A stretch of DNA of 64,000 nt from Cordylochernes scorpioides (Eukaryota > Arthropoda > Arachnida > Pseudoscorpiones > Chernetidae), in contig CP092877.1 of NCBI GenBank assembly GCA_030710605.1, forward strand, positions 75,752,419 through 75,816,418. Direction: 5' to 3'. The position numbers were made by a program, and so were the translations under genes. Of the stretch, positions 5,821-64,000 are shown piece by piece. Position 1 is the stretch's first letter. Each line of letters opens with the position of its first letter. The notes under the pieces were generated by a model that saw only the letters and a program-made list of their open reading frames with translations, made no database searches and was not told the DNA's origin.

Positions 5821-5882
5821 GCTTGGCTCATCAGTGATGAACCCTACCAGCGGTTTCGCCAATATATAATCTACCAGACCGC
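5821..5882 (-). ncRNA. Hammerhead-like RNA with permuted strand order (family X repeat)
   Basis: On the minus strand the order is GCGGU-C-UGGUAG, then UUGGC-GAAAC-CGC, then CAUCA-CUGAUGA-GCCAA. Helix III (GCGGU/ACCGC) and helix II (UUGGC/GCCAA) are perfect; helix I (UGGU/AUCA) is weaker. The core boxes CUGAUGA, GAAA and GGUC are all present, but the strands occur in a crossing order. Other complete copies are at 10189, 12016 and 63803. Helix II here is UUGGC/GCCAA where the 10189 copy has CUGGC/GCCAG, a compensatory change. Confidence 0.55.
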
Positions 5883-5947
5883 TTCTTTAGAGCTCTATAA
5901 TAACATATTTAAAGGAATAAATACCCAAATAAGGCCATTTCTCATAA

Positions 5948-9505: not shown

Positions 9506-9918
9506 TAGATGGTAAATTTGCCGGGAGGAAATTGATCCATAGAAGCATAGGGCGCCTCTCCCGTCAAAATAAACGTCAAAACCTGACGCCATCTATTGAC
9601 CGTCGCCGCAAATTTACCATCTATATTCTAGCCATAGATTTGGCCCAGCCACCTTGCCAGCAAAACACCTCTTTGGTAGATTGTGAAGATTCCATTAGAT
9701 CCCGTGTGGATCTCATGGAATAAGGTCCGCACTAGACTGACGAGGGCCATTAGCCCGAAACCATGGTCTCTAGGTGGACGCTTCTCAGTTTGCCAGAGCT
9801 GGTGTTGTGGCTTTGTCACCGACTCGAGGCCACTAGTTGCGGCGACGGTCAATAGATGGCGTCAGGTTTTGACGTTTATTTTGATGGGAGAGGCGCCCTA
9901 TGCTTCTATAATTATTTA
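9506..9918 (+). mobile_element. Foldback repeat, family B, carrying an intact hammerhead
   Basis: Inverted arms of about 70 bp (9533-9606 and 9838-9907) enclose a 230-bp centre that contains the hammerhead at 9725-9779. Arms include GGGCGCCTCTCCCGTCAAAA and ATCTATTGACCGTCGCCGCA. Related copies are at 3496, 15285, 51912, 54715 and 56170. No protein is encoded, so movement must depend on another element. Confidence 0.7.
9725..9779 (+). ncRNA. Type I hammerhead ribozyme (family B foldback)
   Basis: Helix I pairs GUCCGC-A-CUAGA (9725-9736) with UCUAGGUGGAC (9769-9779), with one bulged A. The core is CUGACGA (9737-9743), then helix II GGGC-CAUUA-GCCC, then GAAA (9757-9760). Helix III is ACC/GGU with a two-base loop. 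The predicted cut is after GUC at 9768. All invariant bases are present. The tiny helix III is the form known from Penelope-like retroelement hammerheads. Three diverged copies (52094, 54717, 56174) keep the architecture but have core changes. Confidence 0.85.
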
Positions 9919-10062
9919 TATTACTGAAATATCATAGAGTATGAGTAAATATGTTAATTATATAGCATTGATAATTTTAAAAGTCTCGTTATTTGCTGAT
10001 GCAGAAAAACCTAAGAATAAATAAACTCTTGAAAGCATTTCAAATTTTGAAAAAATATATAT

Positions 10063-10320
10063 GATACACTAGCGCGCCATCTGTTATCAAAATTCAAAGC
10101 TTATGTCCATAGTTCTTCTAAAATACCCATTCCAAGAGTCTACCAACAGTATCACTATAAAAGGAAGTTCCAAAAATGCAATATAACAGCGGCATGGTAG
10201 ATTAAACTGGCGAAACCGCTGGGAGGGTTCACCACTGATGAGCCAGGACCTCCCTTTAATTTTTCCATTGCAGCAAGGGCAGTAGAAATTGATTAATTTC
10301 AAAAAGAATCTTACGCCTTT
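10063..10320 (+). mobile_element. Dispersed repeat, family X
   Basis: Begins near GCGCGCCATCTGTTATC and ends near AATAGTTTTGAATTTTGAA, with a central permuted hammerhead-like segment (10189-10246) and the block TTACTGCAATGGAAAAATTA in inverted form. Partial or complete copies occur at 5745, 11815, 46260, 46570, 46740, 49190, 49560 and 63590. Confidence 0.65.
10189..10246 (+). ncRNA. Hammerhead-like RNA with permuted strand order (family X)
   Basis: CUGGC-GAAAC at 10207-10216 and CUGAUGA-GCCAG at 10235-10246 give a perfect 5-bp helix II. GCGG at 10189-10192 pairs with CCGC at 10216-10219 for helix III, though the base before the cleavage position is C rather than U. UGGU at 10195-10198 pairs with ACCA at 10231-10234 for helix I. 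The strand order differs from a normal hammerhead. Confidence 0.55.
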
Positions 10321-11814: not shown

Positions 11815-12135
11815 ACGCCATCTGTTATGAATATTCGAAACTATTATAGACGCGTATGATTCTTTTTAAAAATTAAACAATTTCTGCTGTCCTTATTGCA
11901 ATAGAAAAATTAAAGGGAATAATTAAATTATGTCCATAGTTCATCTAAAATACCTATTCCATGAATCTAGCATCAGTATCACTATAAAAGGAAGTTCCAA
12001 AAAGGCAATATAACAGCGGTATGGTAGATTAAACTGGGGAAACCGCTGGGAGGGTTCACCACTGATGAGCCAGGCTCTTCCTTTAATTTTTCTATTGCAG
12101 TAAGGGCAGTATAAATTTTAGGAAAAATATTTTTA
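11815..12135 (+). mobile_element. Dispersed repeat, family X
   Basis: Begins ACGCCATCTGTTATGAATAT and contains the permuted hammerhead-like segment at 12016-12073. Inverted copies of the TTCTACTGYCCTTACTGCAA block occur at 11882-11905 and 12095-12115. Confidence 0.6.
12016..12073 (+). ncRNA. Hammerhead-like RNA with permuted strand order (family X)
   Basis: GCGGU-A-UGGUA (12016-12026), CUGGG-GAAACCGC (12034-12046), then CACCA-CUGAUGA-GCCAG ending 12073. Helix III is perfect, helix I has four pairs, helix II has one mismatch. The cleavage triplet would be GUA. Confidence 0.5.
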
Positions 12136-18474: not shown

Positions 18475-19197
18475 ATTCCATGTTTAAATTTTTAACATCT
18501 TCTATGAAATTTTCTAATATATTATTTATTCTATAAAATCTTAGAAACTGACCAAAATATATACCTTTACAGCAATTTAATGATATATTAGAATTTATAT
18601 TACAGTATTTTATAATATTGAAATTATAATTACTTTTTTTATTATAAATTTTAATAGCATTATTTGTAAGGTCTATATTTAGGTCTAAAAAGTTAACTTT
18701 TTGTTTCTATAAATTTTTTCATTGTTCTTAAGTTTCAAGTATTTAGGATATATTTCAGGTATTAATTTTTTAAACTGTGGATTATTAAATATTATGATGT
18801 CATCTACATAACGGAACATTTGCCAATTAACATTATTTTGTAGAAAGTATTCTCTTTCGTACCAGAATAATATTAGGTTGGCTAATAAAGGACTAGAAGA
18901 AGTTCCCATGGGAAATCCTTCTGATTGAATATATATTTTATTTTTAAATTCTATATAGTTAAAATTTAAAAATGTTTCCAGTAGAGTTTTTGCTGTTTTA
19001 AGATCTAATTTAATTGTTTTATATCTGTTATGAATAATTTTAATGTAGAAAGTTTTGTCATTAATGAATTCGTTAAATAAATTGGTTATTTTATTATTTA
19101 AATCTCTTAAATTTATTTTAGAATATAGGTCCTCAAAGTCAAATGTGTGTACTGGTTCCATGTTTTTTCTCTCTCTCTCTCTACTAAATAATAACAA
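18475..19197 (-). pseudogene. Reverse transcriptase fragment, Penelope-like type
   Basis: The minus-strand frame 19197-18685 carries FDFEDLYSKI (first catalytic block), GFPMGTSSSPLLANL (the dNTP/template block) and RYVDD (catalytic aspartates). A frameshift near 18690 is followed by a further matching stretch down to about 18475. These blocks resemble reverse transcriptases of the Penelope-like/telomerase-related group rather than LINE or LTR types. There is no N-terminal domain and no recognisable endonuclease. The open frame begins inside the right inverted repeat (19161-19278), so its start may be fortuitous. It is distinct from the GIY-YIG element at 20-30 kb. Confidence 0.7.
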
Positions 19198-19278
19198 TTT
19201 ACAAATTTTATAATTTGAATTTAAATAATCAAAATAATGAAGATAATTTTAATACAAAACTAAACAACTATTTATTAT
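19161..19278. repeat. Right inverted repeat of reverse-transcriptase element
   Basis: Reverse complement of 17101-17230. Together they bracket a 1.9-kb interior with the reverse transcriptase fragment. Confidence 0.8.
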
Positions 19279-22370: not shown

Positions 22371-22880
22371 ATATACCTCGCCGCAGCCGACCTTTACTTG
22401 GTAGGAATACGGCTGCTTCCAGGAGATATAGGAATGCTAGAGCTATTGAGACACCACTTCAAAGTGAGACGCGTCGTGCGCTTCGCAGTCTTAGGTATTC
22501 TGAAGCCCGCGTCGCAGCTACACAAACTATGCAAGTTCCTGTTCAGCGTATTCAGCTTTGGACTCATAAGCCGTTTTCAGGTTTGCAGTATAATGCCCAT
22601 ATTGATTATTAAGCTGATTTATCTGTCGATATAGGCCAAATGTCTCGGGTATGCCAGTTTTGCTCTGCTTTGAGATTTAGAGATGAACCCTTTGGCCTCT
22701 GTTGTAAACAAGGTAGAGTTTCTCTACCTGCTATTGAGTCCCCTCCAGAACCTATTTTCTCTTTGCTCTCTGGCCTACATCCTCTATCGAAGTCCTTCTT
22801 GCTGCATATCCGTAGATATAACTCTATATTCCAAATGGCATCTTTTGGTGCTAGACAAGTTGTAACTGTAAATATGCATA
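22371..22880 (+). pseudogene. Helitron replication protein/helicase, N-terminal exon relic
   Basis: Preceded by a polypyrimidine tract and acceptor CTTTTTTTTCAG at about 22370. Translation gives an arginine-rich stretch, then MSRVCQFCSALRFRDEPFG and IRRYNSIFQMASFGA, the conserved region upstream of the HUH nuclease domain in Helitron proteins (zinc-binding CxxC, LRF-E, then MASFGA). One stop codon (TAA near 22612) and an abrupt end after MASFGA show decay. The HUH nuclease and helicase domains are absent. Confidence 0.75.
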
Positions 22881-23271
22881 TTTTGTGTGGTATTACAAAA
22901 GTTTCAATAAATATCTTTTTTAAATATTTTCTCTTCAAACCCATCATACACACATGCTACATTTTTCACATGTTTCAATGTGTAGGGTTTTAAACCTTCA
23001 TGGTAAGGTATTCTTACTTAAGAAGTATACTGTGTTAGAAAAATTTATGTTTACCCAAATTACCATTTTAGCATAAGTATACATCTTGCACCTAATAAGA
23101 GACCTAAACAATGAGTAAGGTTGAACAAAGAGTGGTCTAACATACACATTGTTTAGGTTTCAGTGAACAAAGAGGTCAGTAAATTTTATTAGAAAAAAAA
23201 AAACTATTCCATGTACTGTAATAGAAACAAAATAAACCTCATCCTACCTAATATACATTACTGATGAGGAA

Positions 23272-23597
23272 GGGGGGTCGGTGGAAGGCTGGTTAAACTG
23301 TTTGGTTTACGACCATTACGACCCGGGTTCGATCCCCGCATTGGACACTTTTTCTGTTTAAAAAAAAAAAAATGCTCCAATGGCCCCCCGATTCTTGCAA
23401 AAGTCCAACCCCACCAGCGAGTGCAAGTAACCAAACGGGGCTCTGGCACATTTGTAAGTGCAAAGTCAAACTGCTTTCCACATGTGTAGACATGTAGTGC
23501 GCTTACATTAAAAGCAGTTGCTAACTACCCACCATGATTATCATGGCCTGTACCACATGTACTAGGGATAAGCAAAAAAAAAAAAATAAATAAATAA
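23272..23597 (+). mobile_element. tRNA-derived SINE, family A, copy 3
   Basis: Head GGGGTCGGTGGAAGGCTGGT with B box GGGTTCGATCC at about 23324-23334. The body ends at CTAGGGATAAGC plus an A-run and AAATAAATAAAT. It inserted into the Helitron, so it is younger than it. Confidence 0.85.
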
Positions 23598-23938
23598 TGA
23601 GGATTAAAGATTTTGATTTGTGTTGAAAATTTTGCATGCATTTCTCTATTTCTGTTCTTATCTTGCAAAGCTAATGGATTGTTTAGTTTGCTTATCTTTG
23701 ACTCGCCAATTTGTTTAGTGATAAAGTGGTATAGCGTTCTTTTTCAGAGCATCACCCTACAAAAAAATTACCTGACCTTTCCTAATATTCAGATAGATTG
23801 ATTATATCAACGTACTAGACTACAAACATTCCCTCGAGTAAAAACAATTATTTAAAAAAAAATCTTATTTAAATATATATCACTCGGGTAGATATGCACA
23901 CGGGTCAATCCCGGGGCGAAGCCCGGGTCGGCGTCTAG

Positions 23939-26077
23939 TATATATATATATCTCTAATAAGAGGACAAACAAACGAATAAAATATAGGCCACCAGAAAAA
24001 ACCAAGGAAGCAAGGAATACATAGCCAGGCTGTAGTTATCATTATCAGGAGATGTCTGCCTGGTTACCACTGCTGCTATTCTGAGATGATTCTTGTATTT
24101 GGATGACTTGGGGTGAGCTCAGGGAATAGTATATTATAAACTTCTGGAATATCAACTCTTCTGTTAATACTATTGTGTTTTCTTGATATAATGGATTCTA
24201 TAATGAGTCTCTGTTGTTTATTGGGGATGTTGGAATAATGGGTTATTGGTTTGGATAGTGCGAAGGAATGACCTGTTTCTCTTACATGATGGTATACTAG
24301 AGATCTATTGTCCTGGTTTTCGATATTTCGTTGATGTTCAGATATTCTTACATTTAAATTTCTACCTGTTTCACCTACGTATATGGTTTTGCATTCGTTG
24401 CATTCTATAGAGTATATGGCATTCTTAATATTGCAAGGATAATTAAGGCTATTGCTTTTTGTTATAGGGTTTCTTAGTAGTGAACTTAAACTTGGTGAGT
24501 TGCAGAAGAAGGTTTTAACGCCGAAATTTTTCAGATGACGGGCTATTGATATGGATACAGGTGAGTAGGGAATACTGCAAATAGATTTGTAAACTGGGGG
24601 ATTTCGCATTTCAGACGGGCTATGGAAATGTCTTAAAATAAATGATAAAGGATATTGGCAGGTTTTTAGATTTCTTAAAATATTATGGGTCTCTTCTGTT
24701 TTGAAGGTCTGAAGTGAGCAGTGGCTATGGATACGTTTGGTAAGGGTCTTTACAGTATAGATTTTATGGCTGAGAGGGCAGTAGGAGGAAAAACGGATAT
24801 AGTCGGGGTTGAAAGATGGTTTATAGTGAACGGTTGTTTGGAATTTATTCTCTGTACGCATGATTTTGACATCTAAAAAAGGCAGGCTATTGTTTGTTTC
24901 TTTTTCATAGGTGAAATTTAGGTCGGGATGGTAACTGTTCAGTTTTTCCAGAATTGTATTGGCTTGGGTTTCGGGACAGATACAAAATATATCGTCGATA
25001 TATCGACGCCATAATATAATATCGGACGGAAATAGTGAATTTATCCACCTGTCTATGCGGCGCATGACAATTTCTGCCACTGATGTCGAAAGAGAGCTAC
25101 CCATGGGAGAACCCTTTGTCTGTTTGTAGGTTTTGTGATTGTATGTTATGATATTTGTTTCAAGGCATAAGGCTATAAGTTTCGTAATTTTCTTTACAGT
25201 GATCGGATCGATAGGATTTTCTTTCAAGTATTCTTCTGTGCTGTTTAATATAAGTTGGTGTGGGAGACTGGGGTACAGGGATTTGACATCAAAAGAAACC
25301 ATGATCTTGTCTGATGGGGCTTGGCATTTGAGTACCTTTTCTATGAATATGGAGGTATTAAATATGGAGTACTGGAAGCTTTGTTGTTGTATTATTGGTT
25401 TAAGAAATGCTGAGATAAATTTGGAAAGAGGTGCTGTTGGGAAATGGTAGAAGGCAACTATGGGTCTTAGAGGGACATCCGGCTTGTGAATTTTGGGGAG
25501 GCCATATATATGGGCATCGGTCTGCATGTTGGATAGGAAGTCTTTTAATTCTTCGTTCGTAATTTTATTTTCCCTATTCATTTTTCTAAGTTCTTTTTTA
25601 TATGAGGAGTATATTCGGGTTTTTTCTTCTCCAGAAATGTGCTTGAAGGTGGTTGGGTCTTTGAGTATGATTCGCATTTTTTGTTGGTAATCGGATTTAT
25701 CTAAAATCACTGTATGTCCCCCCTTGTCTGAATGGGTGATGATAATTTCTTTTCTGTTTTTTAGGTCTTTAATAAGTCGGTTTTCATGTGGGTTGAATTG
25801 GGGAAGGATCACGGGTTCACTTAGGAGGTTGGTCACGTGGTGTCTGATGATGTTTTTCTCTTGATTGTTAAGCCTTGACACGGCGGCCTCGACTCCACTT
25901 ACTATTTTGATTGGGTCTGGTTTTTGAATATTTCGGAATTTCATACCTTTAGATAACAAGGTTAATTCCTCCGGAGTTAGCGTAGTTTTCGACAGATTGA
26001 TTATTGTGTTGGTATTTTCATTCCGATTTAATTTTGGGTTATTGAATTTTACCGCCCAATATCTCAATTTTTTTTTA
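23939..26077 (-). mobile_element. Penelope-like element copy 1, coding and proximal 3' part
   Basis: 5'-truncated: homology to copy 2 starts at the codons KKLRYWAV (26077). It continues past the Helitron at 20868-21107. Opposite orientation to, and nearly identical with, copy 2 at 26187-29690. Confidence 0.9.
24076..26067 (-). CDS. PLE reverse transcriptase with GIY-YIG endonuclease (5' truncated)
   Basis: A 663-codon open frame without interruption. It copies PLE RNA into DNA primed at a nick made by its own endonuclease. Visible parts: an LLSKGMKF block (38-45), first reverse-transcriptase aspartate block SFDVKSLYPSLP (258-269), GSPMGSS (319-325), YIDD (356-359), LPFLDVKI (395-402), a linker, then the GIY-YIG endonuclease with IYSI (551-554) and IYVGETGR (562-569) followed by R..EH. 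Compared with copy 2 it lacks about 130 N-terminal residues, so the first methionine used here is internal and the copy is probably not functional. This is the endonuclease-bearing (EN+) PLE class. Confidence 0.9.
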   Translation of the reverse strand: MRYWAVKFNNPKLNRNENTNTIINLSKTTLTPEELTLLSKGMKFRNIQKPDPIKIVSGVEAAVSRLNNQEKNIIRHHVTNLLSEPVILPQFNPHENRLIKDLKNRKEIIITHSDKGGHTVILDKSDYQQKMRIILKDPTTFKHISGEEKTRIYSSYKKELRKMNRENKITNEELKDFLSNMQTDAHIYGLPKIHKPDVPLRPIVAFYHFPTAPLSKFISAFLKPIIQQQSFQYSIFNTSIFIEKVLKCQAPSDKIMVSFDVKSLYPSLPHQLILNSTEEYLKENPIDPITVKKITKLIALCLETNIITYNHKTYKQTKGSPMGSSLSTSVAEIVMRRIDRWINSLFPSDIILWRRYIDDIFCICPETQANTILEKLNSYHPDLNFTYEKETNNSLPFLDVKIMRTENKFQTTVHYKPSFNPDYIRFSSYCPLSHKIYTVKTLTKRIHSHCSLQTFKTEETHNILRNLKTCQYPLSFILRHFHSPSEMRNPPVYKSICSIPYSPVSISIARHLKNFGVKTFFCNSPSLSSLLRNPITKSNSLNYPCNIKNAIYSIECNECKTIYVGETGRNLNVRISEHQRNIENQDNRSLVYHHVRETGHSFALSKPITHYSNIPNKQQRLIIESIISRKHNSINRRVDIPEVYNILFPELTPSHPNTRIISE

Positions 26078-26186
26078 TGGGAAAGTTGGTATACTAGTTA
26101 CAGTTTTTTGTTACTTAAGGTGTCTTGAATATTTACAACATAGTTTCAGGGATGTAATACAGGAAGGAGGAGAAGTAGAGGTAATA

Positions 26187-26500
26187 AAAGTAATATACTT
26201 AGGTGAAACAGGTAGAAATTTAAATGTAAGAATATCTGAACATCAACGAAATATCGAAAACCAGGACAATAGATCTCTAGTATACCATCATGTAAGAGAA
26301 ACAGGTCATTCCTTCGCACCATCCAAACCAATAACCCATTATTCCAACATCCCCAATAAACAACAGAGACTCATTATAGAATCCATTATATCAAGAAAAC
26401 ACAATAGTATTAACAGAAGAGTTGATATTCCAGAAGTTTATAATATACTATTCCCTGAGCTCACCCAAAGTCATCCAAATACAAGAATCATCTCAGAATA
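26187..26500 (+). pseudogene. Partial GIY-YIG endonuclease (upstream pLTR copy)
   Basis: Matches codons for IYVGETGR onward through the stop of the complete frame (compare 28985-29289), nearly base for base. It has no start of its own. Confidence 0.85.
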
Positions 26501-26773
26501 GCAGCAGTGGTAACCAGGCAGACATCTCCTGATAATGATAACTACAGCCTGGCTATGTATTCCTTGCTTCCTTGGTTTTTTCTGGTGGCCTATATTTTAT
26601 TCGTTTGTTTGTCCTCTTATTAGATATATATATATATATATTTTAAATATTTTGTCTCAATTATATAATAGTTAATATGTAAAAGTAATATTTATATCTT
26701 CATAAAAATATGTAAAATAGTATCATTACATTTAACTCGTGTTCTATTGGCGTGTCATTATACCATGTTTTCT

Positions 26774-26802
26774 CCTGTAGAAGGGCGTCCGTGCCCGAAA
26801 GC
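26774..26802 (+). ncRNA. Hammerhead-like motif in PLE pLTR
   Basis: CUGUAGAA-GGGC...GCCC-GAAAGC. The layout is that of a hammerhead core (box, helix II, GAAA) but the first box is CUGUAGA instead of CUGANGA and there is an extra A before helix II. Copies at 29575-29603 (+) and 20944-20972 (-). PLEs are known to carry hammerheads in this region; this version looks inactive or highly diverged. Confidence 0.4.
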
Positions 26803-26915
26803 TAGAGAACAATAAAATGTTTTTTGAAGAAGACACTCTTCCCTGGAGGAATGATTGATTTTGCTCAATATTTATGCAAGGGATTATTTTATAGAATTGT
26901 GAACCAAAGTTTAAC

Positions 26916-29289
26916 ATGAATCTCTCGCCAAATCAAATCGAATTTTATTTAAATCAGATATACAAAAAATCATTGCAGCTAACAAAATGGAGATGTCACC
27001 TGAGTTTCAATCGTTTTTGTGAAGAGGTGAACTTTATCCCCCCATCCTTACGAATTAAGGACCCTGTGAAAAATCCGTTTTCAAGAAAAGTAATAGAAGA
27101 AACTGAATATAGGCTGTTGAGAAGTAGAACACAAGGATGTTACTCCAACATACGATTACATTCCAAAACCATCAAAGAACTCATATGCCTCACCACTAAT
27201 GTTGTACCAGAAAATAAAATGTATGAATTTATAATCCGAACTACCTCTCAGATCAATAAACTAAAAACAGAAATAGAAAGAAGACAGACCAAAAAATTGA
27301 GATATTGGGCGGTAAAATTCAATAACCCAAAATTAAATCGGAATGAAAATACCAACACAATAATCAATCTGTCGAAAACTACGCTAACTCCGGAAGAATT
27401 GACCTTGTTATCTAAAGGTATGAAATTCCGAAATATTCAAAAACCAGACCCAATCAAAAATAGTAAGTGGAGTCGAGGCCGCCGTGTCAAGGCTTAACAA
27501 TCAAGAGAAAAACATCATCAGACACCACGTGACCAACCTCCTAAGTGAACCCGTAATCCTTCCCCAATTCAACCCACATGAAAACCGACTTATTAAAGAC
27601 CTAAAAAACAGAAAAGAAATTATCATCACCCATTCAGACAAGGGGGGACATACAGTGATTTTAGATAAATCCGATTACCAACAAAAAAATGCGAATCATA
27701 CTCGAAGACCCAACCACCTTCAAGCACATTTCTGGAGAAGAAAAAACCCGAATATACTCCTCATATAAAAAAGAACTTAGAAAAATGAATAGGGAAAATA
27801 AAATTACGAACGAAGAATTAAAAGACTTCCTATCCAACATGCAGACCGATGCCCATATATATGGCCTCCCCAAAATTCACAAGCCGGATGTCCCTCTAAG
27901 ACCCATAGTTGCCTTCTACCATTCCCCAACAGCACCTCTTTCCAAATTTATCTCAGCATTTCTTAAACCAATAATACAACAACAAAGCTTCCAGTACTCC
28001 ATATTTAATACCTCCATATTCATAGAAGAGGTACTCAAATGCCAGCCCCATCAGACAAGATCATGGTTTCTTTTGATGTCAAATCCCTGTACCCCAGTCT
28101 CCCACACCAACTTATATTAAACAGCACAGAAGAATACTTGAAAGAAAATCCTATCGATCCGATCACTGTAAAGAAAATTACGAAACTTATAGCCTTATGC
28201 CTTGAAACAAATATCATAACATACAATCACAAAACCTACAAACAGACAAAGGGTTCTCCCATGGGTAGCTCTCTTTCGACATCAGTGGCAGAAATTGTCA
28301 TGCGCCGCATAGACAGGTGGATAAATTCACTATTTCCGTCCGATATTATATTATGGCGTCGATATATCGACGATATATTTTGTATCTGTCCCGAAACCCA
28401 AGCCAATACAATTCTGGAAAAACTGAACAGTTACCATCCCGACCTAAATTTCACCTATGAAAAAGAAACAAACAATAGCCTGCCTTTTTTAGATGTCAAA
28501 ATCATGCGAACAGAGAATAAATTCCAAACAACCGTTCACTATAAACCATCTTTCAACCCCGACTATATCCGTTTTTCCTCCTACTGCCCTCTCAGCCATA
28601 AAATCAATACTGTAAAGACCCTTACCAAACGTATCCATAGCCACTGCTCACTTCAGACCTTCAAAACAGAAGAGACCCATAATATTTTAAGAAATCTAAA
28701 AACCTGCCAATATCCTTTATCATTTATTTTAAGACATTTCCATAGCCCGTCTGAAATGCGAAATCCCCCAGTTTACAAATCTATTTGCAGTATTCCCTAC
28801 TCACCTGTATCCATATCAATAGCCCGTCATCTGAAAAATTTCGGCGTTAAAACCTTCTTCTGCAACTCACCAAGTTTAAGTTCACTACTAAGAAACCCTA
28901 TAACAAAAAGCAATAGCCTTAATTATCCTTGCAATATTAAGAATGCCATATACTCTATAGAATGCAACGAATGCAAAACCATATACGTAGGTGAAACAGG
29001 TAGAAATTTAAATGTAAGAATATCTGAACATCAACGAAATATCGAAAACCAGGACAATAGATCTCTAGTATACCATCATGTAAGAGAAACAGGTCATTCC
29101 TTCGCACTATCCAAACCAATAACCCATTATTCCAACATCCCCAATAAACAACAGAGACTCATTATAGAATCCATTATATCAAGAAAACACAATAGTATTA
29201 ACAGAAGAGTTGATATTCCAGAAGTTTATAATATACTATTCCCTGAGCTCACCCCAAGTCATCCAAATACAAGAATCATCTCAGAATAG
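26916..29289 (+). pseudogene. PLE reverse transcriptase/GIY-YIG, full length with three frameshifts
   Basis: The frame starts at the ATG at 26916 (MNLSPNQIEF), giving the N-terminal region missing from copy 1, and ends at 29289. Relative to copy 1 it has an extra A near 27463, an extra A near 27688 and a missing A near 28044, each in or beside an A-run. Reverse transcriptase and endonuclease motifs are otherwise the same as in copy 1. All three differences are single-base A indels, so recent decay and base-calling errors are both possible. Confidence 0.85.
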
Positions 29290-30104
29290 CAGCAGTGGTA
29301 ACCAGGCAGACATCTCCTGATAATGATAACTACAGCCTGGCTATGTATTCCTTGCTTCCTTGGTTTTTTCTGGTGGCCTATATTTTATTCGTTTGTTTGT
29401 CCTCTTATTAGAGATATATATATATGTATATTTTAAATATTTTGTCTCAATTATATAATAGTTAATATGTAAAAGTAATATTTATATCTTCATAAAAATA
29501 TGTAAAATAGTATCATTACATTTAACTCGTGTTCTATTGGCGTGTCATTATACCATGTTTTCTCCTGTAGAAGGGCGTCCGTGCCCGAAAGCTAGAGAAC
29601 AATAAAATGTTTTTTGAAGAAGACACTCTTCCCTGGAGGAATGATTGATTTTGCTCAATATTTATGCAAGGGATTATTTTATAAAATATATAATGTTTAA
29701 TTTATATATAGATAATTTATTTAAATTTCCCGCCCCCGGCGCGAAATTAACAAAAAAAAATCATTTATCGTTTATGTTACCGTGTTGTCTTCTACTCCAA
29801 TTTGAAACTCTTTCACAAATAAAAATAAACAATAGAATCGACTCGTAAAAAGAGAAACGGGAACCTAATCAAGGTAAATAACAAAGGAGTTAAAACCTAA
29901 AAATAAAAGGATTGGTGACAAAAAACCAAGTGGAGCATACAAAACCAAGAATCTAAAGAAAGCAAGATGGAGAGGAAATCAAGGTGAGGGAGTGGTGGAA
30001 GTGGAAAGGATCGTTAAAAAACAACAGCTCGGAACAACTCAGGCGTGACTTTCCCCGAGGGGCGGAGGAGAAGTTCAATGTCTTAGACAAGTGGGTCAGT
30101 CCGG

Positions 30105-30148
30105 GTATATAACGGTAAGCCCCTCCCCATAGGACATTCGTCGGCAAC
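30105..30148 (+). promoter_or_regulatory. Core promoter of the histidine-rich protein gene
   Basis: TATATAA at 30106-30112 and an initiator-like ACATTC with A at 30136, 30 bases downstream, predict a 13-base 5' leader before the ATG at 30149. GGGTCA lies at 30093-30098. The spacing matches arthropod TATA/Inr promoters. Confidence 0.7.
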
Positions 30149-30169
30149 ATGGCACCAGTAGTTCTCAAG
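30149..30169 (+). CDS. Histidine-rich secreted protein, exon 1 (first half of signal peptide)
   Basis: ATG followed by six codons (MAPVVLK) ending AAG, then a consensus donor GTAAGT at 30170. Phase 0. Joined to the exon at 38917 it forms a typical signal peptide: a lysine-preceded short n-region followed by a hydrophobic core (IALWAGYLTIV) and TCA before the charged mature start. Support comes from the promoter spacing, the donor, phase agreement with the acceptor at 38916, and the completed signal peptide. Transcript evidence was not available. The exon 1/donor junction is re-copied downstream in the intronic array. Confidence 0.75.
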
Positions 30170-32800
30170 GTAAGTCCTCTTAGATCCTTTGTCCTCTCAT
30201 CTACCTATGCAAATCCATCTCATAGTCATCTAAGATTAAAAGAATCAGTATGGATACTATACAAGTGTATCTACAATGTACACGTGTATATATAGTTTCC
30301 CAGATTTTCAGTAAATCCTGGTAACCAGTGAAATTAATCTTTTCAATTGATCTCAATCAGTATTTCTCTAGGTACGTCCTCTCAGATCCTTTGTCCTCTT
30401 ATCTGCCTATGCAAATCCATCCCATAGCCATCTATGATTGAAAGAATGGGTATGGATACTGTATCTACAATGTATGTATAAGTAACTGTAGTTTCCTAGA
30501 TTTTCAAAATATCCTGGTAACCAGTGAAATTAATATTCTCAATTGATATCAACCAGTAGGTCCTCTCCGATCCTTAGTGCTCTATCTACCTATGCAAATC
30601 CATCCCATTGTCATCTACGATTGAAAGGATCAGTGTTTCTACAGTTTCTCAGCTTTTCAGTAAATCCTGGTTACTAGTGATATTAATCTTTTCACATTAT
30701 CTCAACCAGTAGTTCTCAAGGTAAGTCCTCTTAGATCCTTTGTCCTCTTATCTACCTATGCAAATCCATTCTATAGTCATCTACGATTGGAAGAAGGAGT
30801 ATAGATCATGTATAAGTGTATCTGCAGTTTCCTAGCTTCTCAGTAAATCCTGGTAACCAGTAATATTAATCTTTTCACATGATCTCAACCAGTAGTTCCC
30901 TAGGTAAAGCCTCTCAGATTCTTAGTGCTCTATCTACCTATGCAAATCCATACTATAGCCATCTACGATAGAAAGAATCAGTATGGATACTGTACAAGTA
31001 TCTACAGTTTCCTAGCCTTTCAGTAAATCCTGCTAACCAGTGATATCGATATTTTCAATTGATTTATCTACCTATGCAAATCTATCCCATAGTCATCTAC
31101 GATTGAAAGGACAAGTATGGATAATGCATAAGTGTATTTAAAGTTTCCTATCTTTTCAGTAAATCCTGGTAATCAGTAATATTAATCTTCTCAATTGATC
31201 TATCTACCTTTGCAAATCCATTCCATAGTTTCGACGGTTGAAATGATGAGTATGGATAATCTACAAGTGTATCTACAGTTTCTCAGCTTTTCAGTAAATC
31301 CTGACAAACAGTGATATCATTTTTTTCTTTCGATCTCAACCAGTAGTTCTCTAGGTAAGTCCTCTCAGATCCTTTGTCTTCTTATCTACCTATGCAAATC
31401 CATTCCATAGTCATCGACGATTGAAAGAATCAGTATGGATACAGTTTCCCAGCATGTCAGTAAATTCTGGTAACCAGCGATATTAATCTTTTCTATTGAT
31501 CTCGAACAGTAGTTCTCTAGGTGAGTCCTCTTAGTGCTTAATCTACCTATGCAAATCCACTCCATGACCATCTACAATTGAAAGAATCAGCATGAATAAT
31601 CTACAAGTGTTTATACAGATTCCTAGCTTTTTAGTAAATCCTAGTAACCAGTGGTATCAATCTTCTCAATTGATTTATCTACCGATTCAAATCTATCCCA
31701 TAGTCATCTACGATTGAAAGGACCAGCATATATAATGTAGAAGTGCATCTACAATTTCCTAGCTTATCAGTAAATATTACTAACCAGTAATATTAATCTT
31801 CTCTCTCTCTCTTTCAATTGATTTTAACCAGTATTTCTTAAGTTAAATCCTCTCAGATTCTTATTAATCTATCTAACTATGCAAATCTATCCCATAGTCA
31901 TCTACGATTGAAAGGACAAGCATGTATAATGTAGAACTGTAACTACAGTTTGCCAACCTTTCAGTAAATCCTGAAAACCAGTAATATTACTATTCTATCT
32001 CTTTTTCAATTGATTTTAACCAGTATTTCTTAAGTTAAGTCCTGTCAGATTCTTAATACTCTATCTATCTATGCAAATCTATCCCATAATTATCTACGAT
32101 TGAAAGAATCAATATGGATACTATGTTACATACTCTACTACAATATGAATTATTGTAAATAGTTTCACTCGCAATTATCTAGATCGGATATAGCGTATCT
32201 TGCTTGCAACTGGTAATAAATAAATGTATGTATAAGTTTTTACAGTTTTGCTAGATTTTTACTAAATCCTGGTAACCAGTGATTTTACTATTTTCTCTAT
32301 CTCTCTCAATTGATTTTAACCCGTAGTTCTTAAGGTAAGTCCTCTCAGATCACTAGTCCTCTATCTACTTACGTAAATCCTACCATAGCAATCTACGATT
32401 GAAAGAATGAGTATGGTTATTGTATCTACAATGTATGTATAAATATCTACAGCTTCCTAGATTTTCATGGATAATATAGAAGTGTTTCTACAGTTTTCTA
32501 ACTTTTCAGTAAAACCTGCTAACCAGTGATATTAATATTCTAAATACCTATGCAAATCCATTCCATAGTCGTCTACGATTGAAGGAATCAGTATGGATAC
32601 TGTACAAGTGTATCTACATAGTCATAGTCCTAACCTTTCAGTAAATCCTGATAACCAATGATATTTATCTACTTATTTAAATCCTTGCACAGTCATCTAC
32701 GATTTAAAGAATCAGAATATATCATGCACAAGTGTATCTACAGTTTCCTAGGTTTTCAGTAAATTCTGGTAACCATTGACAATAATCTTCTCAATTCAGC
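30170..32800 (+). repeat. Intronic minisatellite, units of about 135-200 bp, about 15 copies
   Basis: Each unit contains variants of CTACCTATGCAAATCCAT, a CATCTACGATTGAAAGAATC block and a TTTCAGTAAATCCTGGTAAC block. About half also contain CCAGTAGTTCT-C(A/T)A(A)GGTAAGTCC, a copy of the end of exon 1 with its splice donor. Good donor copies are at about 30720, 31350 and 32335. The octamer ATGCAAAT is intact in about eleven units. It lies at the very start of intron 1. Confidence 0.85.
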
Positions 32801-38865: not shown

Positions 38866-38916
38866 AGGTTTGTAGAATCAAAAATCAAAGAGTAACAGCT
38901 GTATGTATATGTGCAG

Positions 38917-39633
38917 ATCGCGCTATGGGCAGGCTACCTGACCATAGTAACCTGTGCCAGAAAAGAAGAGGCTGCCAGCGACAAGAAGCTATCCATGGTA
39001 ATGCCCTTAGTTCAAGGTTCCGCAGCTCCCGACTGGGTAGAGCATTGGCGAAAGATGCTTCAACAACAAGACGGGACATTGAAACAAGCTGAAAACCTAG
39101 CCGAACCTACATACCATCATGAAACAAAATATCATCATGAGATGAAACACCACCATCACCATCATAACGACTATCACAAACATGGACATCATGGGCATCA
39201 TGCTCATCACCATGGTCATGATCACGGACACCATCATGGACATGATCATGGTCACCATCACGGACATCATCATGGACATGATCACCACCATGATCACAAG
39301 CATGGACATCATCATGGCCATGAACATGGACACAAGCATGTACATCACCACGAGCACCATCACGATCACCATCATCACCATAAACACCATCATGGACATG
39401 ATCACAAGCACGGACATAAGCATGGGCATGATCACGGTCACGAACATCATCATGGGCATCACCATGGACACAAGCACGGACACCACCACGGACATCACCA
39501 CGGGCATCACCATGGTCATCATCACGGACACCACCACGGTCACCATCATGGTCATCATCATCACGGCCATCATCATCACGGCCATCACAAGCATCATTAT
39601 GGTCATCATTATGGGCACCACCATCACTACTGA
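38917..39633 (+). CDS. Histidine/glycine-rich secreted protein, exon 2
   Basis: Starts after the acceptor TATATGTGCAG (38906-38916), phase 0, and ends at TGA 39631-39633, giving 238 codons (245 with exon 1). The first 14 residues (IALWAGYLTIVTCA) complete the signal peptide. Next comes a charged region of about 55 residues including WVEHWRKMLQQQDG. The rest is almost entirely H/G with D, K and E: repeats of HGHHHGHDH and HGHKHGH type. Such tracts bind Zn2+, Cu2+ or Ni2+ in known histidine-rich proteins, so an extracellular metal-binding, structural or antimicrobial role is possible; no function is proven. There is no upstream in-frame ATG in this exon, which is why exon 1 at 30149 is needed. 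Long frames on other strands here are shadows of the CAT/CAC/GGN codons. Confidence 0.85.
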   Translation: MALWAGYLTIVTCARKEEAASDKKLSMVMPLVQGSAAPDWVEHWRKMLQQQDGTLKQAENLAEPTYHHETKYHHEMKHHHHHHNDYHKHGHHGHHAHHHGHDHGHHHGHDHGHHHGHHHGHDHHHDHKHGHHHGHEHGHKHVHHHEHHHDHHHHHKHHHGHDHKHGHKHGHDHGHEHHHGHHHGHKHGHHHGHHHGHHHGHHHGHHHGHHHGHHHHGHHHHGHHKHHYGHHYGHHHHY

Positions 39634-39821
39634 GAGCATTCCTTCAGTATACTCCAACGACGTGCAAGCTGGCCTTGTTAAATTGATATTTTTCCTTTTT
39701 TTTACAAATATTTTTTATATATATGACTCTGTAAGGTATTAATTTTTGAATAAATATATTTTATATTTTGTACTTTCTCGTGTTTTCATTTATTTTATAA
39801 CACACACAATAAACCAAAACG

Positions 39822-39840
39822 TACACGCTTGTTCTGCGGT

Positions 39841-39880
<40 letters not shown>

Positions 39881-39924
39881 GGCCCCTGCGCAAGGATGAA
39901 ACGCAAAATCGTGAAGCTTTCCAG
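39822..39924 (+). pseudogene. U6 snRNA retrocopy
   Basis: The central U6 sequence is intact: ACATATACTAAAATTGGAAC, GATACAGAGAAGATTAGCAT (including ACAGAGA) and GGCCCCTGCGCAAGGATG. The 5' stem-loop is diverged but can still pair (GUAC...GUAC). The 3' end stops at GAAGCTTTCCAG without the terminal U-run. The 14-mer AATAAACCAAAACG flanks it at 39808-39821 and 39925-39938, so it arrived by retroposition into one unit of the array. No proximal promoter elements seen; probably not expressed. Confidence 0.85.
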
Positions 39925-40814
39925 AATAAACCAAAACGATAACAATGCATATAAACAACTTCTACTCGATGCGCAGCGATGGCAAGCTGACCTTGTTAAA
40001 TTGTTTTTTTCCTTTTTTTTAATAAATTTATTTTATATGACTCTGTAAGGTATTTGAATAAATATATTTTATATTTTGTACTTTAACCTTTAACCACACT
40101 CAATAAAACAAACGATAAAATACAGTACTTTTAAACAACTTCTACTCGACTTGCAACGACACTCAAGCTGGCCTTGTTAAATTGTTTTTCTCTTTTTTTT
40201 TACAAATTTATTTTATATATATGACTCTGTAAGGTATTTGAACAAATATATTTTATATTTTGTACTCTTTCGCGTGTTTTCATTTCATTTATTACACACA
40301 CAATAAGCCAAAACGAAAACAATGGTTATAAACAACTTCTACTCGACTCGCAAAGACGGAAAGCTGGCCTTGTTAAATTGTTTTTTTATTTTTACAAATT
40401 TATTTTATATGACTCTGTATGGTATTTGAATAAATATATTTTATATTTTGTACTTTCACGTGTTTTCATTTCTTTTATAACACACACAATAAACCAAAAC
40501 GACAACAATACTTATAAACAACCTCTACTCGACTTGCAACGACACTCAAGCTGGCCTTGTTAAATTGTTTCTTTACTTTTTTACAAATTCATTTTATATA
40601 TATGACTCTGTAAGGTATTTGAATAAATATATTTTATATTTTGTACTTGCGCGTGTATTCATTTCTTTTTATAACACACACAATAAACCAAAACGATAAC
40701 AATACTTATAAACAACTTCTACTCGACTTGCAATGACACTCAAGCTGGCCTTGTTAAATTATTTTTTCCTTTTTTTTTACTAATTTATTTTACATATATG
40801 ACTCTTTTTGAAAA

Positions 40815-46254: not shown

Positions 46255-46860
46255 ATTGTGATGCACCGCTGGGAGGGTTCACCATTGATGAGCCAGGCCC
46301 TCCCATTAATTTTTCCATATTACAGTAAGGACAGTAGAAATTGTTTAATTTCAAAAAGAACCTTACGCGTCTAAAATAGTTTCGAATTTTCAGAAAGGCA
46401 TATATTGGATCAAAACGATATCATTATATATTCCTTATTTTTTTTTAAAGGAGAACGTTCGAATTTATATATATAGGAACTACGTCATTATATAAGCAAA
46501 TAAGGAGTTGTTTTAATGCTAAAAACATGAAATTTCTTTAATTTTTGCCTATGATTGCAAATTTGTTTATATTATGATGCATTAGCGCGCCATCTGTTAT
46601 CAAAATTCGAAACTATTATAGACGCGTATGATTCTTTTTAAAAATAAACAATTTCTACTGCCCTTACTGCAATGGAAAAATTAATGGGAGGGCCTATACG
46701 CGTCTATAATAGTTTCGAATTTTGATAAAAGTTGGCCCTCTAATGTATATCATAAGGGGCCCTCCCATTAATTTTCCATTTGCAGTAAGGACAGTATAAA
46801 TTGTTTATTTTTAAAAAGAATCATACGTGTCTATAATATTTTCGAAATTTGTTTGAAGTT
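46255..46860. repeat. Three nested copies/fragments of family X
   Basis: Fragments at 46260-46400, 46566-46735 and 46740-46856 in alternating orientation, with GCGCGCCATCTGTTATCAAA and AATAGTTTCGAATTTTGATA. The first keeps a decayed permuted hammerhead-like segment (TTGATGAG box, GAAA lost). Confidence 0.6.
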
Positions 46861-49179: not shown

Positions 49180-49345
49180 TATTTTGACGCGTATGATTAT
49201 TTAAAAGATTATAAACAATTTTATACTTACTGCAATGATGATTTAATGGGAAGGTCTAGTTCATCAGTGGAGAACCCTCCCAGCAATATTTACCATTGCA
49301 GAAAAGGAAGTAATAATTGTTTAATAAAAATAAAAAAAGAAAAAG
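49180..49345. repeat. Family X fragment
   Basis: Contains TTCATCAGTGGAGAACCCTC (minus strand CTGATGAA), but the GAAAC and helix III parts are missing. Confidence 0.5.
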
Positions 49346-49913: not shown

Positions 49914-50597
49914 CTAGAAATACTTTTGTCCAACGATGTGATCAAAAATGACAGCATGTCCATAAATCTTGGTATAGATATCTACACGCTGCGTTTCTTT
50001 GCCAGCATTGGGTATACCAGGTTGGATATGAACAGTTTTATGATCCAATTTACATCTGAATGTCATTCCAGTTGCTGATCCAAGTACCACAGCAAACTGT
50101 GGCGTATCATTATAAACACAAGAATTATTTTTCCAATAACAATAACTAAGATCAGATGGACGTGGTAAAAGTCGTTTAGTATCTTTAAAATATGGTTCAA
50201 AATCTTCAGTCATTAAACGATGTGCATAATCAATATAACTTGAAATTTCTTCACCACGATGATTAGTTGTTCGTATATATATAATACTTAGTACTGTACA
50301 ATTTACATTTGATTCTTCACGTAATGCTAAAGCATCTAGAAGTTCATCTTGAACAGTTTTCTGAAGGCTAGCGAGTTTCCGTTTCTTACGTCCTGCAAGA
50401 CGTTGAAGTTCAGCTTCAAGTTTAAGATTCTCAAATTCCTCTCGACGAAGAACGTCTCCTGTAGTACGATAACCAAGTTCGATTAGTTTATGAGCTATTT
50501 CGTCATCTTCTAGATAGAAATGATCTTCTTCAGTGATAAGAGAATCTAAGTAATCTTCGTATTTGATAAATTCACGAATGACATCCTTATCACTCAT
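49914..50597 (-). CDS. CFAP299: Cilia- and flagella-associated protein 299
   Basis: An intact 227-residue frame, about the usual family length (around 230). Recognisable conserved parts: YEDYLDS near the start, YYLED-like FYLEDDE (27-33), LIELGYRTTGD (39-49), the hallmark YIDYAHRLMTEDFEPYF (121-137), KRLLPRPSDLS (141-151) and AVIFDHI near the end (215-221). An in-frame TAA two codons before the ATG fixes the start. CFAP299 (vertebrate C4orf22) is linked to motile cilia and sperm flagella; its molecular role is poorly known. The whole protein is in one exon here with no A tail or target duplication visible, whereas vertebrate orthologues are multi-exon. It may be a lineage with introns lost or an old retrocopy. 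No promoter identified; AT-rich DNA and repeats on both sides. Confidence 0.9.
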   Translation of the reverse strand: MSDKDVIREFIKYEDYLDSLITEEDHFYLEDDEIAHKLIELGYRTTGDVLRREEFENLKLEAELQRLAGRKKRKLASLQKTVQDELLDALALREESNVNCTVLSIIYIRTTNHRGEEISSYIDYAHRLMTEDFEPYFKDTKRLLPRPSDLSYCYWKNNSCVYNDTPQFAVVLGSATGMTFRCKLDHKTVHIQPGIPNAGKETQRVDIYTKIYGHAVIFDHIVGQKYF

Positions 50598-51090
50598 CTT
50601 TTACTGGAATTCTTATCGGATTTAATGGATAAATTAGATCAATATATATAAATTTTTATATCTAATTTCTATATATTTTATCGTATCTTATATTAAATAA
50701 AAAACTTGTTTTTAACTTATAATAATGGTGTTTATAGCATGGATGGTTAAAAATGGCTATGGGAGTTAATTTAGGAATGGAATAAACCTTCGAATTTTTG
50801 ACAGACCCAACTCCAAATCGAATTCCGTTTTGAGCAAATTTTTTTTTCAATGGCTTCAAATTCAATTACAAGCCCATTCCTACCAGTGGATTAAAGTAAC
50901 CAATCTTGTATATTTGAACCTTGTGAGTCTGATAGTATTTTGTATATGTGCTTGAACTGCTTCACCCTTGTGTGAACAAGTGAAAAAAATAATAATAATA
51001 ATAAAAAAAGAAATAATAAGAAAGTAAGGTAGTGTTATAAAAAATATACTTTTGCCAGAAAATATTTTTATTTATCTCGATGTTTAAAAA
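50598..51090. other. Upstream flank of CFAP299, nothing identified
   Basis: AT-rich, with an (AAT)n-like run at 50990-51015. No clear TATA/Inr pair found on the minus strand. Confidence 0.35.
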
Positions 51091-51911: not shown

Positions 51912-52280
51912 GATGGAACATTTTCTGGGAGGAAATTGACCCATAGAAGCATAGGGCGCCTCTCCTGTCAAAATAAACGTCAAAAACTGACGCCATCTAT
52001 TGACCGTCGCCGCAACTATCGGCCTCAGGTCGGTGACAAAGCCACAATACCAGCTTTGGCAAACTGAGAACCGTGTGGATCTCATGGAATAAAGTCCGCC
52101 CTAGACTGACGAGGGCGATTAGCCCGAGACCATGGTCTCTAGGTGGACGTTTCTCAGTTTACCAAAGCTGGTGTTGTGGCTTTGTCACCGACCCGAGGCC
52201 GCTAGTTACGGCGACGGTCAATAGATGGCGTCAGTTTTTGACGTTTATTTTGACGAGAGAGGCGCCCTGTGCTTCTATAT
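51912..52280 (+). mobile_element. Foldback repeat, family B, with mutated hammerhead
   Basis: Arms of about 125 bp (51945-52068 and 52155-52275), including GGCGCCTCTCCTGTCAAAAT and AAGCCACAATACCAGCTTTG, enclose the hammerhead at 52094-52148. Confidence 0.7.
52094..52148 (+). ncRNA. Hammerhead ribozyme with one core mutation (family B)
   Basis: Same architecture as 9725-9779: GUCCGCCCUAGA/UCUAGGUGGAC helix I, CUGACGA, GGGC-GAUUA-GCCC, helix III ACC/GGU and a GUC cut site. The GAAA box reads GAGA (52126-52129): the second conserved A is G. Catalysis is probably lost. Confidence 0.75.
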
Positions 52281-52562
52281 TTAATATACTACTGGGTTTG
52301 ACCAATATTTACTTGCCCTATCACCTATTACAAACTTTCAAAATGGCGAAAAACTTACTAGAACGACCGATAGAGGGCGTGTTAACTTCCTCAAAGATAG
52401 ATAACATCATTTGATAAATTCAAATTTCTTTTTCTGAATGGTGTCAGAGAGATAAATTCCCGGAAAGATTACACGTGGAATTTGACTTTTTCAAATTCCA
52501 CATTTTAAGTTACGAAAAGTCAACTAAACGTTCAAATTTGAATATATTTACTGTTATAAATA

Positions 52563-63289: not shown

Positions 63290-63585
63290 TAGATGGTAGA
63301 GAGCGCCACCTAGTGGAATAAAAATCAACTAAACGTTAATATAGACTTGCACCATAATATTTTGCCAACACATTACTTGAAGAAGACATTTTTCCCTGGA
63401 GGTCTAATGTTTGTAATTCAAATTTTGATTCAAAGAATTATGTTATCAAACTGATTATAGATTGTCCTGTTTTTCAAGACAACAGAATTGAAAATAATTT
63501 AATAATAACAGATCCAAGTATTTTATTTCCAGTAAAGAAATGTATATTAAATTCAATACCTTTTGTAGATATATTTTACACAAAG
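63290..63585 (+). repeat. Family C end block, PLE end block and LINE relic
   Basis: GAGCGCCACCTAGTGG at 63301 (family C), GAAGAAGACATTTTTCCCTG at 63381 (as at the PLE 3' end), then a LINE-tail-like translation KLIIDCPVFQDNR near 63450-63490. A mosaic of fragments. Confidence 0.45.
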
Positions 63586-63589
63586 CAAT

Positions 63590-63960
63590 AACGCGCCATC
63601 TATACATATAAAATGAAATAATTTAAAAGCACGAATGTTTCTTTTATGCATAATACAAACTTCTACTGTCCTTACTGAGATGTAATTCTACTGTCCTATA
63701 AGCTTATGTCCATAGTTTTCTTGAAAACCATTTCTGAAATTCCACCCTTCAGTGCTGCGTATATAAGCAGAATCGTCCAATACAGTATTAGAGCTCTGAG
63801 AAGCGGTCTGGTGGATTAAATTGACGAAACCGCTGGGAGGGTTCACCACTGATGAGCCAAGCCTTCACAATATATTTTTCCATCGCAGTAAGGCAAGTAG
63901 AAGCTTGTATTATGTATAAAAGAAACATTCATGCTTTTAAATCCTTTCATTTTATATAGA
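63590..63960 (+). mobile_element. Dispersed repeat, family X, with complete permuted hammerhead-like core
   Basis: Begins ACGCGCCATCTATACATATA, ends TTTTATATAGATATATTTTA; the ends are partly inverted copies (AAAAGCACGAATGTTTCTTT and its complement). The core is at 63803-63860. Confidence 0.65.
63803..63860 (+). ncRNA. Hammerhead-like RNA with permuted strand order (family X, best helix I)
   Basis: GCGGU-C (63803-63808) is followed by UGGUGGA (63809-63815), then UUGAC-GAAA-CCGC (63821-63833), then UUCACCA-CUGAUGA-GCCAA (63842-63860). Helix III has five pairs, helix I seven (UGGUGGA with UUCACCA, one G-U), helix II four of five. The cut site would be GUC at 63808. Confidence 0.6.
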
Positions 63961-64000
63961 TATATTTTAAATTATATAGCAACAAATATCTTTTAATTAA

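Follow-up and report, generated by a model that had tools for sequence, protein, structure and literature searches.

The end of a 64,000-nucleotide stretch of the genome of the pseudoscorpion Cordylochernes scorpioides (contig CP092877.1, positions 75,752,419 to 75,816,418 of the forward strand; the whole of this stretch is hereafter called the window) raises the question of whether a short repeated motif, in which the three strands of a hammerhead ribozyme core stand in an unexpected order, can act as a ribozyme within a single molecule, and of what sort of element carries it. At 63802–63868 on the forward strand the sequence reads, in order, cut strand (S), GAAA strand (G) and CUGAUGA strand (C), together with complementary flanks: AGCGGU-C-UGGUG (stem III, cut site, stem I) and UUGAC-GAA-ACCGCU (stem II, core, stem III) are followed by GGGAGGG (stem IV), UU, CACCA-CUGAUGA-GCCAA (stem I, core, stem II), G and CCUUCAC (stem IV). 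A likely answer, judged from the sequence evidence, is that this is a cis-acting type-SGC hammerhead, predicted to cleave itself, within a non-coding retroelement of about 373 bp and of the animal-retrozyme or Penelope type. The parts of the motif are as follows (A, B and C denote subfamilies of the repeat, separated by the alignment described below):

63760–63767, forward strand: TATA-box-like run TATATAAG, so called from its motif, 49 nt upstream of the cut site
63802–63807, forward strand: stem III 5' strand AGCGGU (strand S)
63808, forward strand: H17, a C, with the cut predicted 3' of this base from the sequence and the hammerhead NUH rule, which permits both C and A as H
63809–63813, forward strand: stem I 5' strand UGGUG
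63821–63825, forward strand: stem II 3' strand UUGAC, with an A.C mismatch; most distinct subfamily A rows have UUGGC
63826–63829, forward strand: GAAA core (strand G), the final A pairing with U63807
63829–63834, forward strand: stem III 3' strand ACCGCU
63835–63841, forward strand: stem IV 5' strand GGGAGGG, part of a fourth helix joining the outer ends of stems I and II
63844–63848, forward strand: stem I 3' strand CACCA
63849–63855, forward strand: CUGAUGA core (strand C)
63856–63860, forward strand: stem II 5' strand GCCAA
63862–63868, forward strand: stem IV 3' strand CCUUCAC, forming 6 of 7 pairs; the subfamily A consensus is CCCUCCC

The strand order is real and it is already known. 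An earlier reading of the window made from its letters (the sequence-only reading) had held that no hammerhead with this order was described, which is contradicted by the type-SGC hammerhead (the HRIMA-1 motif and its variants), a non-circular permutation reported in 2023 by Eckert, Friedrich, C. E. Weinberg and Z. Weinberg (PMC10085705). According to that paper, 583 type-SGC sequences were predicted from metatranscriptomes, five examples were cut in vitro at the expected place and a sixth, without the cut site, was uncut, stems I and II are connected on their other sides by an additional helix, and the type was found in no known organism's genome. The repeat described here shares with these ribozymes the order S-G-C, the CUGANGA, GAAA and UH core with its A-U pair by UH, stems I–III and the fourth helix, and in both cases stem III directly adjoins that helix (spacing of 0–44 nt in PMC10085705, 0 here). 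The published sequences come from metatranscriptomes, whereas the motif here is dispersed as a repeat through a eukaryotic genome. A further difference lies in the linker between stems I and II, of about 7–9 nt here (7 nt in the consensus of subfamily A, 9 nt in the copy at 5821) as against typically 3 nt in the published account; since that length is there given only as typical, the longer linker marks a variant and not an exclusion.

The same order, as the sequence-only reading had noted, is found at all four sites that it listed (63803, 10189 and 12016 on the forward strand and 5821 on the reverse strand), and two further partial copies are present in the window:

5813–5886, reverse strand: type-SGC copy, core and helices I–III intact, stem IV with 4 of 7 pairs
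10185–10258, forward strand: type-SGC copy of subfamily B, with C in place of the invariant core U that precedes the cut site
12012–12085, forward strand: type-SGC copy of subfamily B, stem II closing pair broken by G for C on the GAAA side
46265–46311, forward strand: partial copy, limited to strand C and the stem IV side
49244–49287, reverse strand: partial copy, decayed

The claim that all four copies hold three strands with pairable helices thus survives in part: strands and order are as described, and a defect-free core with helices I–III is found only in the copy at 5821, the sole listed copy to pass a strict three-helix test. At 63803 the GGC-GAAAC segment quoted in that reading is not present, UUGAC standing opposite GCCAA there with an A.C mismatch in stem II. 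The helix II change that it had pointed out (UUGGC/GCCAA against CUGGC/GCCAG) is genuine and divides two subfamilies.

Whether the pairs of the proposed fold have been kept together was examined in an alignment of further copies. To sample the genome (2.62 Gb in 24 contigs, its eukaryotic nature evident from its U6 small nuclear RNA and repeats), 20 stretches, each of 10 kb, were picked before looking, at round coordinates and on 10 of the 24 contigs, and 30 loci (L001–L030) were selected by similarity to the 63803 query. Copies were gathered from these loci and the window, and then from sampled stretches, by means of a profile built from the four window copies; 63 matches with near-full motif coverage and a score of at least 24 were kept, shorter or weaker ones being excluded, and after removal of L001, which is the same DNA as the window copy, and merging of identical rows, 36 distinct rows were obtained. 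A third subfamily (C) was found via a query with a diverged copy (44 places listed, 40 candidates scored of 2417), and the addition of 12 of its short stretches gave 48 rows, in which 14 rows labelled C include one A row (L014:2112), those truly C numbering 13.

In the 36 rows 89.8% of the cells are paired, and both-side changes occur in 10 of the 23 pairs, as compared with a shuffled mean of 3.8 (0 of 500 shuffles reaching the observed value). In the 48 rows 89.3% of 1089 cells are paired, 38 cells carry a both-side change (shuffled mean 12.8; 0/500) and the covariation score is 0.170 (shuffled 0.128; 0/500), while structures slid along the same alignment reach at most 54.2% paired cells and scores of at most 0.081. 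By helix, the proportion of paired cells is 79.6% for stem I, 92.1% for stem II, 90.3% for stem III and 93.2% for the fourth helix. The changes which separate subfamilies are found in stem II, where pair 30-71 is U-A in subfamilies A and C and C-G in B (12/12 B rows), in stem I, where pair 15-58 is G-C in A and B, A-U in eight rows (seven C, one B) and G-U in five further C rows, and in stem IV, where pair 47-80 is G-C in A and B and A-U in ten rows, all of them C. These subfamily-separating double changes amount to about three events, in three helices, and stems I and II are the ones that cross the hairpins. The core letters CUGAUGA, GAAA and UH, with C or A as H, are kept in the consensus of all three subfamilies.

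The fourth helix, GGGAGGG/CCCUCCC, was absent from the sequence-only reading and for that reason constitutes an independent test. In each of the three subfamily consensus sequences it can be formed with 8 pairs between the letters upstream of the stem I 3' strand and those downstream of the stem II 5' strand, a match which random genomic segments of equal lengths attain in 59–64 of 20,000 draws. A pseudoknotted hammerhead acting in cis, one of the two possibilities originally put forward, is therefore supported both by the presence of the fourth helix that belongs to this topology and by the subfamily-separating double changes in stems I, II and IV.

Predicted nested folds are consistent with this arrangement. 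A subfamily A copy folded alone gives stems III and IV as neighbouring hairpins (z of -3.0 against shuffles), in whose loops the stem I and stem II strands lie, apart from a few weak pairs in addition, and this two-hairpin fold is obtained in four of the eight copies folded (L006 and L004 of subfamily A, L041 and L040 of B). In the 373-nt unit folded as a circle, all 7 pairs of stem IV have probabilities of 0.99–1.0 and five of the six pairs of stem III have 0.96–1.0, the outermost having 0.41. Stem III is also predicted to form in all four window copies.

Cores in the order S-G-C are, moreover, more frequent than expected by chance. A strict scanner covering all six strand orders (stems I, II and III with at least 4, 4 and 3 pairs and at least 12 in total, the loop being in helix III) found three SGC cores and none of any other order in the 200 kb sample, as against no SGC core and 0.35 matches of any order per 200 kb in 20 Markov shuffles of it. 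In loci L001–L030 seven SGC cores stand against no canonical ones (span of at most 150 nt), and the canonical cyclic order S, C, G was not encountered there. In the window the strict scan returned one SGC core (the 5821 copy) and one weak match in the order S-C-G at 20101; a looser scan returned one SGC and two CGS cores, with six matches in total, one of them SGC, in 60 shuffles. An exact 22-nt string of the motif had no match in viral contigs or in prokaryote genome contigs.

Several observations weigh against a cis-acting type-SGC ribozyme and have to be set beside the above. In the 48 rows the number of pairs with both-side changes, 10 of 23, is reached by 8 of 500 shuffles (mean 6.2), and the number of further pair types, 25, is not notable (shuffled 23.2; 85/500). 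Of the three helices for which the sequence-only reading had suggested a covariation check, stem III has no subfamily-separating double change and varies only in single copies. The fifth pair of stem I is open in 28 of the 48 rows, including 10 of the 12 in subfamily B, and a one-base deletion leaves subfamily C with two or three stem I pairs, depending on where the gap is placed. The commonest copy in L001–L030 (23 identical rows) carries the A.C mismatch in stem II. Of the 48 copies, 33 have an intact core, and 22 combine it with at least 5 pairs in stem III, 3 in stem I, 4 in stem II and 5 in stem IV. The fourth helix is less striking when compared with its own letters shuffled (379–869 of 20,000). 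None of the four window copies gives a clean two-hairpin fold, a competing GGUUC/GAGCC hairpin lying inside stem IV at 10185, where 6 stem IV pairs are kept, leaving only part of stem IV at 12012 and largely replacing it at 5813 and 63800. Among the frames of L001–L030 neither a reading frame nor a helper is linked to the unit, and every copy comes from one genome.

Some of these points would suit a different explanation, in which the repeat is an RNA or DNA element with two conserved hairpins, serving a retroposon for example as a reverse-transcriptase binding site, and the hammerhead core is coincidental or a dead relic. Hairpins III and IV are indeed the stable part of the fold, many copies are decayed and stem I is short in subfamily C. 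Such an element would, however, leave unexplained why all core letters, with C or A as H, are kept in three subfamily consensus sequences and why stems I and II, which cross the hairpins, carry subfamily-separating both-side changes, and shuffled sample DNA gave no SGC core; we regard this explanation as unlikely.

An ordinary hammerhead formed across neighbouring units, taking its GAAA strand from the next unit in the canonical order S1-C1-G2, is improbable to much the same degree. Folding of this kind, in dimers or circles only, was the other possibility offered by the sequence-only reading, which had also proposed a search for tandem dimers, and head-to-tail units do exist, in L006, L023 and L029. 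The same genome moreover contains two families of minimal type I hammerheads (T1a and T1b) with palindromic helices III, and minimal type I hammerheads of Penelope-like elements perhaps act as dimers, as is suggested in PMC7761336. Formation across units is nevertheless not needed. Both stem IV and the hairpin of stem III are local to a single unit and persist in three subfamily consensus sequences, whereas the partners of a cross-unit hammerhead would stand more than 300 nt from each other, and such a hammerhead gives no reason to expect stem IV. In the window the type I families are represented by the following:

9737–9768, forward strand: canonical minimal type I hammerhead (CUGACGA to cut site), family T1a, with palindromic helix III ACCATGGT
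4572–4601, reverse strand: canonical minimal type I hammerhead (CUGACGA to cut site), family T1b, with palindromic helix III ACGCGT

One further intact core of each family is present in the 200 kb sample (in L040 and L032, respectively). The Rfam hammerhead models gave no match anywhere in the window at gathering score and none in 63501–64000 or 9600–9900 at E up to 5, a silence which means that the type I copy at 9737 escapes detection under either setting and its counterpart at 4601 under the gathering score.

As regards the carrier of the type-SGC motif, the unit is 373–375 bp long with a GC content of 0.37. When up to three of the longest frames per locus were judged by eye in L001–L030, no long reading frame was found in it; a LINE-like reverse transcriptase stretch in L004 (2–992) and an RNase-H-like stretch in L001 (2747–3050), both likewise judged by eye, lie in the flanks outside the insertions and were set aside. 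The AUG within CUGAUGAG starts a short frame, MSQALPIYFF..., spanning the downstream half of the unit (63852 onward and L008 1545–1851, both on the forward strand). This is probably due to chance; the open reading frame (ORF) of PAc, a Penelope-like element of Anolis with a hammerhead, likewise begins inside the hammerhead (PMC11167929). The insertion that holds the 63803 copy is delimited as follows:

63566–63578: 5' target-site duplication TAGATATATTTTA, 13 nt
63579–63956: insertion, an inverted tail arm (about 63575–63685) standing head to head with a forward arm (63680–63965)
63957–63969: 3' target-site duplication TAGATATATTTTA, 13 nt

The inverted arms around this copy measure 88 nt and are 86% complementary. 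Of 55 clusters of unit pieces (the 63803 copy being counted three times), 26 contain an inverted and a forward piece placed head to head, and 17 of the 30 query-matched insertions start with an inverted piece. The 3' end falls at unit positions 335–373, at or near a box of sequence TAGATGGCG (position 345), in 29 of the 30 insertions, as does the 5' start in 16 of the 17 inverted-first ones, the inner joint being variable. Direct repeats of 11–18 bp flank 17 of the 30 insertions, two of these (L025 and L029) being of low complexity; as a control, mismatched 5' and 3' flanks of different insertions reach 11 bp in 17 of 870 pairings. Forward pieces exceeding one unit pass across the cut site unbroken (488 nt in L003, 691 nt in L006 and 688 nt in L023), which indicates that the template was an uncut tandem or a closed circle. 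A DNA transposon of the miniature inverted-repeat type, with terminal inverted repeats and an incidental RNA motif, could account for the inverted arms flanking the 63803 copy and for the insertions with an inverted start, but is very improbable and was rejected because of the termini and the duplications: the arms meet at an inner joint that differs between copies, 13 of the 30 insertions have no inverted start, some are tandem, and the direct repeats have no single fixed length. As a separate observation, two CUGAUGA-side halves of the motif stand head to head in L038 (7183–7323), forming a near-perfect palindrome.

The 200 kb sample contained 11 near-complete motifs, which extrapolates to about 140,000 in the genome; as these are found in 6 of the 20 stretches, the estimate holds to an order of magnitude only (10^5).

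In size, tandem copies and the lack of a long reading frame, the unit resembles the animal non-LTR (long terminal repeat) retrozymes with type I hammerheads described by Cervera and de la Pena in 2020 (150–450 bp; PMC7229834), and also in its GC content below 50%, target-site duplications of more than 4 bp and high copy number. That paper describes type I (CGS) ribozymes and demonstrates circular RNA, whereas the unit described here is of type SGC and was identified in genomic DNA. With PAc the unit has in common tandem or partial-tandem repeats with the hammerhead in the repeat, and the insertion process reported for that element (PMC11167929) fits the layout found here: reverse transcription starts inside the template, leaves a fixed tail and extends both target strands. 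By analogy, extension of both strands could give head-to-head inverted copies, and copies with a fixed end and a variable joint suggest a retroelement for which tandem or circular RNA is the template and copying begins at a fixed internal point, as for PAc, the insertion of which in vitro did not require hammerhead cleavage (PMC11167929). Penelope-like elements carry a reverse transcriptase and a GIY-YIG domain, neither of which was seen by eye within the unit among the frames of L001–L030.

The families T1a and T1b resemble the type-SGC unit in their head-to-head layout (window 9539–9920 and 51943–52283 for T1a; L032 and L050 for T1b), in having several copies in the 200 kb sample and in the TAGATGGCG box downstream of the ribozyme, which follows the cut by 84 nt in T1a, 91 nt in T1b and 152 nt in the type-SGC unit, but differ from it in their canonical strand order and palindromic helix III. 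Apart from this box the unit has no match of more than 11 nt to either family. The box occurs at 11 places in the window (e.g., 9853 on the forward and 4480 and 63602 on the reverse strand), downstream of ribozymes in otherwise unrelated repeat families, and is perhaps a signal recognised by a common reverse transcriptase.

The mechanism that we propose for the cis-acting type-SGC hammerhead is as follows. The RNA would form two side-by-side hairpins, stem III (AGCGGU/ACCGCU) and stem IV (GGGAGGG/CCCUCCC), the loops of which would kiss through stem I (UGGUG/CACCA) and stem II (UUGGC/GCCAA), bringing together CUGAUGA, GAAA and the GUC cut site in the manner of other hammerheads. The unit may be transcribed from a start near stem III, with the ribozyme at the 5' end of the transcript; this is suggested by the TATA-like run, whose start precedes the cut by 49 nt in the subfamily A unit as well as the 63803 copy and by 39 nt in two others, the B copy at 10189 and a C copy in L022 (the latter being a poor match). 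Cleavage after GUC, or after GUA in subfamily B, would release RNA of unit length bearing 5'-OH and cyclic phosphate termini. For hammerheads such termini are established as the usual substrate of ligation into circles, and here ligation may give circles of about 373 nt. A helper acting in trans would then reverse-transcribe from the tail near TAGATGGCG, with tandem and head-to-head inverted copies and target-site duplications of 11–18 bp as the outcome. On either side of the ribozyme (about 70–80 and 280–292 of the unit) stand the complementary sequences TCTACTGTCCT and AGGACAGTAGA; in circles these could pair to give a long stem that closes the unit.

In the type I relatives, helix III is palindromic but not long enough to fold back on itself, and its formation would require two molecules or units. 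With the strands in the order S-G-C the same core obtains a stem III that is local, making action in cis possible; this offers a reason for the success of the repeat but no proof. The wider scenario, in which a eukaryotic retroelement lineage with some 10^5 copies would use, in place of the minimal and perhaps dimer-dependent type I hammerhead of Penelope-type elements, a kissing-hairpin type-SGC ribozyme that cuts in cis just downstream of the promoter and makes unit-length circles, is put forward tentatively, as a serious possibility that falls a little short of probable.

Among open-licence papers we found no type-SGC hammerhead from a eukaryotic genome, PMC10085705 alone naming the type; two later papers citing it, among the matches listed, concern structure-comparison tools. 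In the same open-licence literature we did not find in print an abundant eukaryotic retrozyme-like repeat with a type-SGC hammerhead beside canonical hammerheads. A eukaryotic genome with very many copies provides the type with a host, a mobile-element context and a rich natural collection of mutants, and permuted and canonical hammerheads stand side by side in the same class of retroelement; together these make two questions testable, namely how the non-circular permutation arose and why Penelope-type elements keep hammerheads. If the wider scenario is true, the repeat would provide the type-SGC ribozymes with their first known genomic host and eukaryotic genomes with their first non-circularly permuted hammerhead, and its ribozyme may be a relative of the metatranscriptomic ones.

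With regard to a helper, the window contains one candidate type:

24079–26097, reverse strand: Penelope-like ORF with reverse transcriptase and GIY-YIG, a possible helper type

It belongs to a pair of Penelope-like elements, 23940–26097 (reverse strand) and 26895–29687 (forward strand), which are 99% identical, lie in opposite orientation and have both domains; it would be a plausible type of helper for the type-SGC unit. No hammerhead core was found in the repeat of this pair (23940–29687), CUGANGA occurring in 22500–31000 only at 23261, 25844 and 27521. A reverse transcriptase fragment of another element (Pfam RVT_1) is present at 18688–19248 on the reverse strand.

Some other features of the window were also noted. 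An open, intronless frame of 228 amino acids at 49917–50600 (reverse strand) matches DUF4464 (PF14713) over nearly its entire length and is perhaps a retrocopy of a cilia gene. A 245-amino-acid open frame at 38896–39630 (forward strand) consists mostly of His-Gly repeats, and a match to U6 small nuclear RNA, with its body almost fully conserved, lies at 39821–39930 on the forward strand.
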